This document shows, piece after piece, positions 4,498-51,756 of a DNA stretch of 64,000 bases; the stretch's first letter is position 1, and each line of letters begins with the position of its first letter. The stretch is from the NCBI GenBank assembly GCA_026707145.1, contig JAPOXK010000023.1, positions 62,001 to 126,000 on the forward strand, read 5' to 3'. Both the position numbers and the translations under genes were made by a program. Under the pieces are notes generated by a model that worked only from the letters and a program-made list of their open reading frames with translations, was not told the origin of the DNA and ran no database searches. The DNA is from Chloroflexota bacterium. Lineage in GTDB: Bacteria; Chloroflexota; Dehalococcoidia; Bin125.

Positions 4498-4574
4498 TGG
4501 TCGGGGCGACTGGATTTGAACCAGCGACCTCTTGACCCCCAGTCAAGTGCGCTACCGGACTGCGCCACGCCCCG
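4498..4574 (-). tRNA. tRNA-Pro (anticodon GGG)
   Basis: Read on the minus strand, the sequence folds into a complete cloverleaf. The acceptor stem is CGGGGCG with CGCCCCG, the anticodon stem is CTTGA/TCAAG around loop CTGGGGG (anticodon GGG), and the T arm is CTGG-TTCAAAT-CCAG. A73 is followed by an encoded CCA at 4498-4500. It sits alone between the lipoprotein gene and the gene for a small membrane protein. Confidence 0.95.
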
Positions 4575-4650
4575 ACGGCCGGTTGGAATGATGCTAGCAG
4601 GCGGGCACGCTAGTGCCGCGGCCGCGCCGGGGCGGGCGGGGGCGGCTCGT

Positions 4651-4971
4651 CTATCCGTCGCGGATCACGTTGAACAGAATGATGACGATGAAGATGACGA
4701 GCGGGATGATCCAAGAACGGTTGCGGCGGCGGGCTTTCTCGCTCGATTGCGCATCTGGGATGGGGCCCCCCTCCGGAGTGCCGGCGCGGGGAGGGGCGGC
4801 CATGGAGGGCGGTGGTTGCTCCGCACCGGGCGCGGCTTGGGTGCCTTCGGCCCGGTTCGCATCGCGCGCGATGCGGGCGGCGTCGCGCTCGGCGTCTTTC
4901 CACATGCTCGCGCCGGCGTTCTGAAAGGGGTCCTCGAAGTCGTCTGATTGCTTGTAGGGATCGTCGCTCAT
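4651..4971 (-). CDS. Small C-tail-anchored membrane protein
   Basis: The product has 106 residues with an acidic N-terminus (MSDDPYKQSDDFEDPF), a Pro/Ala-rich middle and a basic patch (EKARRRNRS). One C-terminal transmembrane helix follows (WIIPLVIFIVIILFNVI, about residues 87-103). A good ribosome binding site (AAGGAG) precedes the ATG. It starts 35 bases after mfd on the same strand and is probably cotranscribed. No family is recognised. The topology suggests a cytoplasmic soluble portion held at the inner face of the membrane. Confidence 0.75.
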   Translation of the reverse strand: MSDDPYKQSDDFEDPFQNAGASMWKDAERDAARIARDANRAEGTQAAPGAEQPPPSMAAPPRAGTPEGGPIPDAQSSEKARRRNRSWIIPLVIFIVIILFNVIRDG

Positions 4972-5006
4972 GGGGGCTCCTTGGTTGCAGTGTAGATCGC
5001 GGACGC

Positions 5007-48660: not shown

Positions 48661-49224
48661 TCAAGTGAGCGCGTTCCGGACCACGCCATCGTTGAGGAGC
48701 GCTGCTAGCTCGGAGAACGGTCCTTCATCGGTTCCTTCCTCCGGCACGTCCCAGAAGACGGTGCGGAGGCTCCCGTCGCCGATATGGTCCAGCAGCAACG
48801 CCAGCACCCGGGCGCGGCGCTCGGGAGCGATCTCGAAGTAGTCACAGAGACTCCGCAGCGGGATCCCGAGCCGCGAGCGGCCGTTCACGCGCACCTTCAC
48901 CCCCTTGAGGTTGCCGTGCTTGACATGCCAGGAGATGCTCTGCGGCGTCATGTCGAAGAGGCGCGCCGCCTGATCGCGGGAGAGGATCACGTCATCCATC
49001 GGGTAGTAAATGGCCGGGGTGGGGGAGATGCTTGCGTCCGCCAGCGAGAACCCCACCTGTTGGCGCTCATCCAGGTCCGGTGCCATGTCGACCGAGACCA
49101 AGGCGTTCGCGAGCGATTCCCAGGAAACGTCGTACGTCCGCGCGAGCTTCCACAGCTGCTCGCCCATTTGCTGCAGCATCTTCTGGTCCGGATCGATCCT
49201 CATCTTCGGGTCGGGATCGGCCAT
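48661..49224 (-). CDS. HTH DNA-binding protein at the edge of the accessory region
   Basis: The 187-residue product starts at the ATG at 49224 (MADPDPKMRIDPDQ), preceded by GCGAGGACG. The TTG start at 49278 in the track is less likely. An excisionase-like HTH is visible in VILSRDQAARLFDMTPQSISWHVKHGNLKGVKVRVNGRSRLGIPLRSL. The C-terminal part is acidic. A transposon has inserted 78 bases upstream of the start, so its original promoter or upstream partner has been moved 2.4 kb away. A TATAAT on the minus strand in the transposon terminal repeat may now drive it. Confidence 0.75.
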   Translation of the reverse strand: MADPDPKMRIDPDQKMLQQMGEQLWKLARTYDVSWESLANALVSVDMAPDLDERQQVGFSLADASISPTPAIYYPMDDVILSRDQAARLFDMTPQSISWHVKHGNLKGVKVRVNGRSRLGIPLRSLCDYFEIAPERRARVLALLLDHIGDGSLRTVFWDVPEEGTDEGPFSELAALLNDGVVRNALT

Positions 49225-49301
49225 CGTCCTCGCTTTGCCTGCCCTGGCTCGCCGACCATCACACGATGGAACAAGCAATAGCGTACCGCAGCGCCGCTGG
49301 C

Positions 49302-49309
49302 AACGAGGC
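49302..49309. repeat. Target-site duplication, left copy
   Basis: The octamer AACGAGGC directly abuts the left terminal inverted repeat. It is identical to the octamer at 51749-51756. Eight base pairs is the duplication length known for IS1595-type transposases. Confidence 0.9.
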
Positions 49310-49332
49310 GGGGATTATATAGCTGAGTACCC
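49310..49332 (+). repeat. Left terminal inverted repeat of the transposon
   Basis: The left end begins GGGGATTATATAG and finishes TGAGTACCC, with one differing base between the two blocks compared with the right end. The minus strand of this repeat carries TATAAT and may serve as an outward -10 element towards the HTH gene at 49224. Confidence 0.92.
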
Positions 49333-49356
49333 GGGCCGATAGAACGGCAGTTGGCG

Positions 49357-49385
49357 TTGCCAGTCTTGCGAACGCTGCGTAAGGT
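49357..49385 (+). promoter_or_regulatory. Candidate promoter for the 31-residue ORF
   Basis: TTGCCA at 49357-49362 and TAAGGT at 49380-49385 are separated by 17 bases. They lie 22 bases upstream of the ATG of the small cargo ORF. Confidence 0.5.
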
Positions 49386-49407
49386 GGAGAAGAGGGAGGA
49401 CGTGATC

Positions 49408-49503
49408 ATGCCGCGAAAGCCAACGGACCTCCGCATTCCCACGACCCCCGAGAAGCTGGTACAGGCGATACTCAAGCCACCGAAGAAGAAGCCCGCGCGA
49501 TAG
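49408..49503 (+). CDS. 31-residue basic protein, transposon cargo
   Basis: The ORF is too short for the track. It encodes a Pro/Lys-rich peptide starting MPRKPTDLRIPTTPEKL and ending PPKKKPAR. A strong ribosome binding site (GAGGGAGGA) lies 8 bases before the ATG, and a plausible promoter is upstream. A stable hairpin follows, shared with the convergent cargo gene. Small basic ORFs beside larger cargo genes are known in IS1595-type transposons. Any function, such as nucleic-acid binding or partnership with the 283-residue protein, is inference. Confidence 0.6.
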   Translation: MPRKPTDLRIPTTPEKLVQAILKPPKKKPAR

Positions 49504-49568
49504 CCCGGCAGCGTGTCGCATAGGGGGCTGAGCCCTCGCACTTGCAGGTGGTAAAATTGAAAGCGCAC

Positions 49569-49600
49569 GTGAGAAACGGCCCCGAAGGGCCGCTTCTCAC
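49569..49600. terminator. Hairpin between convergent cargo genes
   Basis: A 14-bp stem with one mismatch (GTGAGAAACGGCCC against GGGCCGCTTCTCAC) has the loop CGAA on the plus strand. On the minus strand the loop is TTCG closed by C-G, a very stable tetraloop. No strong T-run follows, but its position between the ends of two convergent genes suggests a bidirectional terminator. Confidence 0.65.
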
Positions 49601-49751
49601 GCCTATTTGGTGGCGTAGGCGCACAGGGAATTGGATTAGAGCCTCAACCCCTGGTGCCCACGCCGTACGAGGCACCTGCTGCATCGCAGCATTGCCCTTC
49701 TAGGAGCGGGCGGGGCACGGACCTCTAGATCGCCCGGCCCCGTCGCTCCAA

Positions 49752-50603
49752 TCACTGACCGTTAGCTCCGGCCAGTCCTGAACCAGCCGTCTTGGCTGAA
49801 TCCGGCCCGTTGGTGCTGCCAGGTGGCAGCATTTTCCGCTCTTCATACGCTTTCAGTTTGTCCACCAAATCGAGAACAAATTTCCTGTCGGGCTCCGACA
49901 GCGTGAAGAGATCAACAGTGACGGACATTGAGACCGTGCCACCGCTATCGAGCGTGATGCTCTTCTCCATTGCTGGTCCGGGTCCATTGCCGCCATCGCC
50001 GTTACCGCTGGATTCTTTTTCAACGGACTTATCGGCTACGGCTGTCGGCACACCACTGAACAGTGCCGCCGGGGTCACAAGGCGATCCTTTCCCTCTGAG
50101 AAATACCCAGCCTGCTCAGCGGCACGAGCCATGACCTGGCGTGCTTTCTTGCACTGCTTGGGCGCGACTCCTAGCTCCAGCATGACCCGTTCAAGGCCAA
50201 CGTCGGGCGGCAACAGTCGCCCCTTGAACTTTTCGAACACCTGGTCGAAGAGAGGAATATTTCGAAAGGCCTCGGCGCGGGCCTTATCACGAGTCTTGGG
50301 GTCCACCATTCGATGCCCGAGGTCCGCCAGCTCAACGCGATCGTCGTTAAGGTTGACGATGCCGAAATCACGAGACGCGTAGAGCTTCGTGCGGAAAGCC
50401 CCGCTCCCGACGCTGTCGTGGCCCATCCACATCGCCAGAGAGGCCGTATCGCCGCTTCCGCCTCGTCCGTGTAGCACCTCGGCCAGATTCTGAGCATCGT
50501 CGATATCGTTATAGGGGAACACGATCGTCGAGCGAATGCGAGAGCCTTCTGCCTCCTTCGATTTCTCGGTTTCAACCGGTTTCACTGGCGCTGCTTCTAC
50601 CAT
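49752..50603 (-). CDS. Transposon cargo protein of unknown function (283 residues)
   Basis: The ATG is preceded by GGAGG. An acidic N-terminal tail leads into two winged-helix-like segments: IRSTIVFPYNDIDDAQNLAEVLHGRGG with LAMWMGHDSVGSGAFRTKLYASRDFGIVNLNDDRVELADLGHRMVDP, and a second near PPDVGLERVMLELGVAPKQCKKARQVMARAAEQAGYF. A Gly/Asn-rich linker precedes a C-terminal beta/helix segment (VSMSVTVDLFTLSEPDRKFVLDLVDKLKAYEERK). The pattern suggests a DNA-binding or regulatory protein. I do not recognise the family. It is carried inside the transposon, so it travels with it. Confidence 0.8.
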   Translation of the reverse strand: MVEAAPVKPVETEKSKEAEGSRIRSTIVFPYNDIDDAQNLAEVLHGRGGSGDTASLAMWMGHDSVGSGAFRTKLYASRDFGIVNLNDDRVELADLGHRMVDPKTRDKARAEAFRNIPLFDQVFEKFKGRLLPPDVGLERVMLELGVAPKQCKKARQVMARAAEQAGYFSEGKDRLVTPAALFSGVPTAVADKSVEKESSGNGDGGNGPGPAMEKSITLDSGGTVSMSVTVDLFTLSEPDRKFVLDLVDKLKAYEERKMLPPGSTNGPDSAKTAGSGLAGANGQ

Positions 50604-50675
50604 GTGGTTCCTCCAGACTGCTCGGCATTAGGCACACCCAGATCCAAGCACGACTGCAGGCAACGCGTCAAGCCT

Positions 50676-50697
50676 ATAATGCCGGAAGAGGCATTAT
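50676..50697. other. Inverted repeat between cargo and transposase genes
   Basis: The perfect 8-bp stem ATAATGCC / GGCATTAT encloses the loop GGAAGA. It lies downstream of the transposase stop and upstream of the cargo gene start on the minus strand. A TTGACG on the minus strand at about 50665-50670 could be a -35 for the cargo gene. The hairpin may be a terminator or an operator. Confidence 0.5.
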
Positions 50698-50735
50698 CGG
50701 ATACAGAAGGCATTAATGGTAACTGGGTGGCGCAG

Positions 50736-51674
50736 CTAGGAAATCAGCTCCCGATATTGGAGCCGCTTCCCTACGAGACCGCGGGCAACGGAGCGCATCT
50801 GTTCAGCAGTATCGAGCGAGCGCTGATTGTGCCGTCCGGCGAACTCTGACACGTACCGACTCAGGTGCTTCTCGCTCATCTGGTGGAAGGCTCCGGAGTA
50901 GCCCCGCTTGAGCATGGACCAGAACGACTCGATCCCGTTCGTGTGGGTCTGCTCGATCGCGTACGTCCCGACGCTGTGCTGCACGTACTTGTGCCGGAAC
51001 TCACCGTCCAGCGGGAAGTAGGCTCCGTGCCCATCGGAGTAGACCTGAGCGCCGGGGGCTGCGTGCTTGCGAACGAAGTTCCGCAGTACGGGAGCCTTTG
51101 CCTGCCCAATGACCTCAGCTCGGACTTTCCCTGTGGCGCGATCCTTCGCGCCGACGATAGCGATCCTGTCTGACGTTCCGACCCGGCCAGCGCGGCGCTG
51201 GTACTCGTGCTTGTTCTTCTCTTTGCCACCAATGAACGCCTCATCCACTTCCACGGGGCCGCGTATCGGCTCATCGCCGTGGTCTCCCCATGCTTCCCGA
51301 ATCCGGTGCGCCAGATGCCACGCGGACTTCTGCGTAATGTTGAGATCGCGGTGCAGCTTCAAGCTGGAGACGCCCTTGAGGGACGTGGTGACGAGATAGA
51401 TCGCGATGGCCCAGGTGCGGTAGCCGAGCTTGGAATCGGCCATCGCCGTCCCTGTGCGGACGCTGAAGCGCTTGCGGCAGTCGCGGCAGCGGTAGGGCAT
51501 CGTGGGATGGGATGCGCCCGTCTGCACATTGCCTGAATCGCAGTGCGGGCAGATCGCGCCATCGGGCCAGCGGGAGTCATGGAACCAGCGCTCAGCCGTC
51601 TGGTCGTCAGGGAATATCTCGAACAGCTCCGTAAGGCTGATCCCGTTGCGTGTGCTCTTCCCTGGTCCCGACAT
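50736..51674 (-). CDS. IS1595-type transposase
   Basis: The 312-residue product has the family layout. An N-terminal zinc ribbon (CPHCDSGNVQTG...YRCRDCRKRFS) is followed by an HTH-like region (MADSKLGYRTWAIAIYLVTTSLKGVSSLKL) and the catalytic domain with EVDEAFIGGKEKNKH (first Asp), VYSDGHGAY (second Asp) and HTNGIESFWSMLKRGY (third acidic site). GGAGGG sits a few bases before the ATG. No frameshift or stop interrupts it, so it should be functional. It lies at the right end of the transposon and reads inwards. Confidence 0.95.
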   Translation of the reverse strand: MSGPGKSTRNGISLTELFEIFPDDQTAERWFHDSRWPDGAICPHCDSGNVQTGASHPTMPYRCRDCRKRFSVRTGTAMADSKLGYRTWAIAIYLVTTSLKGVSSLKLHRDLNITQKSAWHLAHRIREAWGDHGDEPIRGPVEVDEAFIGGKEKNKHEYQRRAGRVGTSDRIAIVGAKDRATGKVRAEVIGQAKAPVLRNFVRKHAAPGAQVYSDGHGAYFPLDGEFRHKYVQHSVGTYAIEQTHTNGIESFWSMLKRGYSGAFHQMSEKHLSRYVSEFAGRHNQRSLDTAEQMRSVARGLVGKRLQYRELIS

Positions 51675-51696
51675 GATAACCCTCCGTAGTGATACA

Positions 51697-51725
51697 AGAG
51701 TACCCTAGACGGGAGGGAAAGTCAA
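51697..51725 (-). promoter_or_regulatory. Transposase promoter abutting the right TIR
   Basis: On the minus strand TTGACT (51720-51725) and TACTCT (51697-51702) are separated by exactly 17 bases. The -35 touches the inner end of the TIR. The -10 region contains GAGTACCCT (51698-51706), the inverse of AGGGTACTC at 51725-51733. Transposase bound to the TIR could therefore repress its own promoter. Confidence 0.7.
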
Positions 51726-51748
51726 GGGTACTCATCTATATAATCCCC
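51726..51748 (-). repeat. Right terminal inverted repeat of the transposon
   Basis: Read on the minus strand it begins GGGGATTATATAG and finishes TGAGTACCC, matching the left end with one mismatch out of 23. Confidence 0.92.
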
Positions 51749-51756
51749 AACGAGGC
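51749..51756. repeat. Target-site duplication, right copy
   Basis: AACGAGGC follows the right terminal repeat without a gap and is identical to 49302-49309. Confidence 0.9.

Follow-up and report, generated by a model that had tools for sequence, protein, structure and literature searches.

The window, a 64,000-nucleotide stretch of Chloroflexota DNA, contains an element that is in all likelihood an autonomous IS1595-family transposon with passenger genes (a "tIS"), with a 31-residue micro-gene in its backbone and with exchangeable cargo. On its own, the element is a good but ordinary tIS. Its interest is raised by the hallmark micro-gene and by the cross-phylum clade with restriction-modification (R-M) cargo to which it belongs.

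Ends, transposase and copies of the element

The element proper occupies positions 49310-51748 of the window (2,439 bp). Inverted-repeat analysis of this sequence recovered the 23-bp terminal inverted repeats (TIRs) that the initial annotation had described as differing by one mismatch (22 of 23 positions complementary, with 2,393 bp in between), and the perfect duplication placed outside them is present on both sides (Table 1). The annotated span of 49302-51756 holds at every boundary, given that it takes in both duplications, and all three of the ORFs described inside it, encoding the transposase, a 283-residue protein and a 31-residue protein, lie where they were reported. With its TIRs, 8-bp duplication and intact 312-aa transposase, the element is complete, as had been claimed. 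TIRs of the same type with 8-bp duplications bound 51 transposase-bearing loci, nearly all of which came from an independent transposase-based scan; the ends are therefore beyond what chance would produce.

Table 1. Features of the element and its flanking duplications, in window coordinates
Feature	Position	Strand	Sequence or description	Basis
Target-site duplication, left copy	49302..49309		AACGAGGC, 8 bp, perfect match to right copy	
Left TIR	49310..49332	+	GGGGATTATATAGCTGAGTACCC, 23 bp	
31-aa backbone micro-gene	49408..49503	+	MPRKPTDLRIPTTPEKLVQAILKPPKKKPAR	ORF, homologues in related elements, purifying selection
Strong hairpin after micro-gene	49568..49601	+	CGTGAGAAACGGCCC/GGGCCGCTTCTCACG, weak T run	
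283-aa cargo gene	49752..50603	-	DNA-binding protein by prediction: tandem winged helices, then a C-terminal beta-hairpin/helix	ORF, comparison, AlphaFold
IS1595 transposase	50736..51674	-	312 aa, intact	Domain models and translation
Inverted internal copy of inner TIR half	51698..51705	-	GAGTACCC	
Right TIR	51726..51748	-	23 bp	
Target-site duplication, right copy	51749..51756		AACGAGGC	

The assignment to the IS1595 type is borne out by the domain models. The transposase matches the DDE_Tnp_IS1595 domain (PF12762, E 9.7e-37, 126.8 bits against a cut-off of 27; NF033547, 179.2 bits against a cut-off of 75) and an N-terminal zinc ribbon (PF12760, 31.4 bits against a cut-off of 25.4) formed by C42, C45, C63 and C66. 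Residues D144, D214, E249 and K256, which we take to be the putative catalytic residues, are invariant in transposase alignment A1. The IS1595 family comprises the groups ISPna2, ISH4, IS1016, IS1595, ISSod11, ISNwi1 and ISNha5. Its transposases have PF12762 and PF12760 domains, and its insertions generate 8-bp duplications (PMC8101967). The window element shares both domains and the duplication length, and its TIRs begin with GG as expected of the family. Unlike the family at large, whose members usually contain a single transposase gene, it combines a conserved micro-gene with variable cargo. Judging from the family, the transposase would bind both 23-bp ends, mobilise all of the DNA between them and generate the 8-bp duplication.

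Near the transposase start lies an inverted internal copy of the inner half of the TIR, which matches at 11 of 13 positions in the window. It overlaps the possible -10 box of a putative transposase promoter (TTGACT-17-TACTCT, 51725-51697) that we recognised by eye and that our promoter/terminator scan did not flag. The match exceeds that of shuffled sequences in about one-third of elements. A third TIR-like site over the transposase's own promoter would allow self-repression.

The 2.42-Mb assembly contains one intact copy of the element, along with decayed relatives. Contig C7 holds a relic made up of a left-end-like stretch plus the opening codons of the micro-gene; C21, at the contig edge, holds a TIR-like end, a micro-gene and a C-terminal fragment of a transposase with 59% identity (L031); C19 holds a TIR-like end and a micro-gene (L066); and C25, C6 and C20 carry further transposase fragments. 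A search for the left-end DNA in 100 relatives returned only the C7 relic of the same genome, the flanking 187-aa protein had no homologue in 60 relatives, and all plasmid matches to the transposase in the collection that we searched were below 60% identity. A 205-aa ORF (48661-49278, minus strand), for which 60 relatives gave no homologue, has its likely start about 80 bp from the insertion, so that the element sits upstream of it, and the insertion may have changed its promoter.

The initial annotation had also called the element recent. This claim has indirect support only, from the perfect duplication and the intact ORF; no near-identical copy was found. It is unlikely that the copy is instead ancient or no longer active, a lone survivor with a duplication left perfect by luck. 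The single intact copy in the genome would fit that history, as would the finding that the closest transposases found are only about 60% identical, but the ORFs are intact, the TIRs match at 22 of 23 positions and the duplication at 8 of 8.

Related elements and their hosts

Using an alignment of the window, L067 and L068 transposases as the query, we scanned a single genome from each GTDB species and obtained 80 loci with transposases 46-62% identical. An element was considered bounded when it had matching TIRs and a duplication agreeing at 7 or more of 8 positions. Among the loci examined, 51 elements were bounded, including those of the window, L067 and L068; removal of repeats (L088 is identical to L067, and L106 to L103) left 49 non-redundant elements. 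The first 39 bounded elements gave the TIR consensus GGGAATTATATACGATAGTGCC, and most of their transposases begin 70-150 bp inside one TIR.

In a tree of 85 transposases, the window and related elements form one clade (50 rows, support 100/98). IS1595 transposases from viral contigs fall outside it, with the exception of L214. The clade spans many phyla, including archaea (L139, Nitrososphaerota), and members of different phyla are interleaved; L117 (Actinomycetota), for example, groups with L126 (Chloroflexota). Elements from a gemmatimonadote (L084) and a gammaproteobacterium (L085) are 93-95% identical in their aligned parts and have different duplications, a cross-phylum pair that could also reflect a binning error.

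The record titles suggest that hosts of the clade are mostly sponge symbionts. Most titles, among them Palauibacter rhopaloidicola and Synechococcus spongiarum, look as if they belong to sponge-symbiont MAG sets, a likeness that we judged from the wording of the titles.

The 31-residue micro-gene

The micro-gene adjoins the TIR that is farther from the transposase. It is preceded by the Shine-Dalgarno-like GAGGGAGGA; alternative in-frame starts are possible upstream (GTG at 49402, TTG at 49351), and the open frame runs to within 17 bp of the end of the element. Using a small-ORF profile, we detected a homologue in 36 of the 49 non-redundant bounded elements, with the window copy (L001) matching at E 9.5e-9. 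Because the elements in which the gene was counted also served to refine the profile, the controls (a single match in 372 kb of flanks and none in reversed sequence) weigh more than the E-values. The frame mostly ends 30-60 bp short of the distal TIR. None of the 38 bounded IS1595 elements of the viral set carries the gene, although a profile trained on its own clade may overlook highly divergent versions elsewhere; L214, an unbounded relative among the viral-set loci, does carry it. In the reverse direction, we searched Chloroflexota genomes with the micro-gene profile and fetched 15 further loci: nine have an IS1595 transposase, four have TIR-like ends only, and two have neither.

Codon comparison indicates that the micro-gene is under purifying selection. 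Its pN/pS is 0.69 (0.62-0.78) over 29 codon columns, and the copies of one close pair (L093/L094) differ by five silent and no replacement changes. The core of the protein is approximately I-x-x-TPE-x-[LVI]-[AM]-[KR]-A-[LVIF]-L. In about one-third of elements, an RGRP motif within a basic stretch is present, often ahead of the core; the window protein lacks this motif. No Pfam or NCBIfam model covers the window protein or five of its homologues. The orientation of the gene is not fixed: gene and transposase converge in the window, L068 and L092-L094 and are mostly codirectional elsewhere. Nor is the gene strictly required, since 13 of the 49 elements lack it or gave no detectable copy. Collectively, these comparisons identify the micro-gene as a conserved backbone, or hallmark, gene of one IS1595 clade that encodes a small basic protein.

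It is very improbable that the 31-residue ORF is no gene at all and that a conserved DNA or RNA end signal merely happens to be open. The near-constant distance between stop codon and TIR in many elements is what such a signal would produce. However, the ORF can point either way with respect to the transposase, close pairs vary mostly silently with pN/pS below 1, protein-profile matches are strong while element DNA aligns mostly over the transposase, and an RBS-like sequence stands ahead of the window ORF.

What the protein does is a more evenly balanced matter. There is about an even chance that it is an accessory of the element, binding either the ends or the transposase, as opposed to cargo. 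Such a role, the weakest step of the mechanism that we propose, is suggested by the position of the gene, which stays beside the TIR as the cargo changes; by its survival in a cassette that has no transposase; and by the AT-hook-like RGRP motif of many homologues, which would suit the AT-rich core of the TIR. Alternatively, though with somewhat lower probability, the protein may be selfish or host-oriented cargo, such as a maintenance or defence peptide. Its absence from the 13 elements would fit this explanation, as would copies with no detectable TIR or transposase (L080, L199 and L210) and the R-M cargo of the clade, which shows that these elements transport defence and addiction genes. Against it stands the constant place next to the TIR, kept while other cargo is exchanged.

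Two of the homologues that lack a detectable TIR and transposase (L080:3883-4065 and L199:4242-4553) have RGRP or related motifs and could be either relics or stand-alone genes. In L066, two short ORFs (63 and 87 aa; 4551-4981) straight after the micro-gene resemble a toxin-antitoxin pair. The hairpin that follows the micro-gene in the window is a possible terminator; its z-score is only -1.8, and the terminator scan did not flag it.

Cargo and parallels with known systems

A tIS carries a passenger gene between the TIRs of a single insertion sequence. Here, the 283-aa gene lies inside the TIRs and is missing from all related elements examined. According to the initial annotation, the cargo travels with the transposase; this applies to the 31-aa gene, found repeatedly across the clade, but not to the 283-aa gene, which no other element examined carries. 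The two are thus not a unit that is always found together. Matches to the 283-aa protein, most of them partial, occur in 10 of 400 Chloroflexota genomes, a count that takes in the genome of the window itself, and no IS1595 transposase was detected at the fetched loci. A peptide-pattern scan yielded no confirmed match in genome contigs and none in plasmids, and the protein has no Pfam, NCBIfam or PADLOC match.

The 283-aa protein was modeled by AlphaFold with two confident domains (residues 34-92 and 105-175, pLDDT mostly >90), a disordered linker, and a beta-hairpin and helix of lower confidence (212-257). From the predicted secondary structure, both domains appear winged-helix-like. Foldseek matches in the PDB were weak (O-methyltransferases, MarR-type regulators, FokI and BrxA, all with E >0.01), and we read them as reflecting a generic winged-helix fold. 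BrxA of BREX systems was rejected as an identity for the protein (7zge, E 0.24, TMt 0.49, not significant). The C-terminal module is shared with the DUF5343-like proteins of L024 and L028; the 283-aa protein itself was not assigned to DUF5343, having no PF17278 match, and these two relatives score 25.3 and 24.3 bits, below the cut-off of 27. The N-terminal part is related to a CAP12-TIR sensor-like protein: in L027 (3858-4970), its homologue carries a fused CAP12/Pycsar TIR effector domain, and an Eco57I-type enzyme adjoins the gene. This fusion is a candidate defence protein with a DNA-binding sensor. Another homologue (L022) lies near a Type ISP enzyme.

We conclude that the 283-aa gene is probably exchangeable cargo, predicted to encode a DNA-binding regulator or defence-related sensor. 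There is a small chance that its product is instead a regulator of transposition or a target selector of the element, given that the gene follows the transposase on the same strand after a 132-bp gap and that its predicted fold is DNA-binding. However, no related element has the gene, and its Chloroflexota homologues occur away from IS1595 transposases, including in the TIR-effector fusion and beside restriction enzymes.

Relatives often carry a DNA methylase as cargo, in some cases together with a restriction enzyme. Among 51 cargo proteins, the DNA methylase family PF01555 accounts for 13, and there are further matches to restriction-enzyme families (BglII, two proteins; Eco47II; SmaI; Mrr), HNH domains, SocA/Panacea and GIY-YIG. 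Given these matches, some elements look like complete R-M units. One of them (L103), whose cargo comprises an MT-A70 methylase and a BglII-type enzyme, is identical over 2,578 bp to L106, which lies at another site on the same Roseovarius chromosome with a different duplication; on this sequence evidence, the pair shows mobility and recent duplication in a relative. That chromosome (OX638333.1) has at least six copies of the R-M-bearing element (L103, L106, L107, L108, L145 and L162): two have different duplications, and four share the left flank CAATCGAA with no right TIR seen, as if amplified inside a larger repeat. In L140 and L142, the micro-genes are near-identical and the cargo is different; the 89% identity of the transposase modules is confined to those modules. 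As read from these sequences, related backbones can carry different cargo. The position of the cargo is not fixed either, since L093 (4552-7118) and L094 (4538-7119) have about 1.4 kb upstream of the transposase. A small cargo protein of similar look (e.g., MTPEEHLRDVADLLREYAEVRKEIACLATRL / MMTDEARDAAVGSLIQDYDDVCRKIACLKRK) recurs in L031 (5758-6135 and 5588-5830), L110 and L140.

One relative (L201:3764-5549) has perfect TIRs, the duplication TTTGAAAT, the micro-gene and no transposase; its cargo consists of methylase/HNH pieces from an apparently frameshifted methylase-HNH gene. Mobile insertion cassettes are likewise bounded by TIRs and have no transposase. L201 resembles them in its TIRs, duplication, cargo and missing transposase and differs in retaining the micro-gene. 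Passenger genes are known from the IS1595-family elements tISCpe8 and MTnSag1/tISSag10 (PMC5704250). These mobilizable elements, like ours, combine an IS1595 transposase with passenger genes between TIRs; the cargo of tISCpe8 is lincomycin resistance, whereas here it is a predicted DNA-binding protein, with R-M systems in relatives. Mobile R-M units, in which insertion sequences move R-M genes, have also been described (PMC3031569). Those are composite or co-integrate arrangements with flanking insertion sequences, whereas the relatives described here hold R-M genes and transposase within a single TIR-bounded unit. We found no description of the micro-gene or of the cross-phylum R-M clade in the openly readable papers that we searched, so the micro-gene is a candidate novelty.

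Sponge metagenomes are reportedly enriched in R-M systems, and a high prevalence of transposases has also been cited (PMC5099237). We tentatively propose, as a possibility that we rate below probable, that the clade marked by the micro-protein, and mobilised with its help, shuttles R-M and other defence-type genes among the phyla of sponge microbiomes, perhaps even across the divide between bacteria and archaea. If true, the clade would be a physical carrier of the R-M systems and transposases that are reported as enriched there. It offers a concrete candidate vehicle, with defined ends, duplications and cargo, for the spread of R-M systems among unrelated symbionts, and a small-protein family outside current Pfam and NCBIfam models that, by its predicted role, may be an accessory of transposition.
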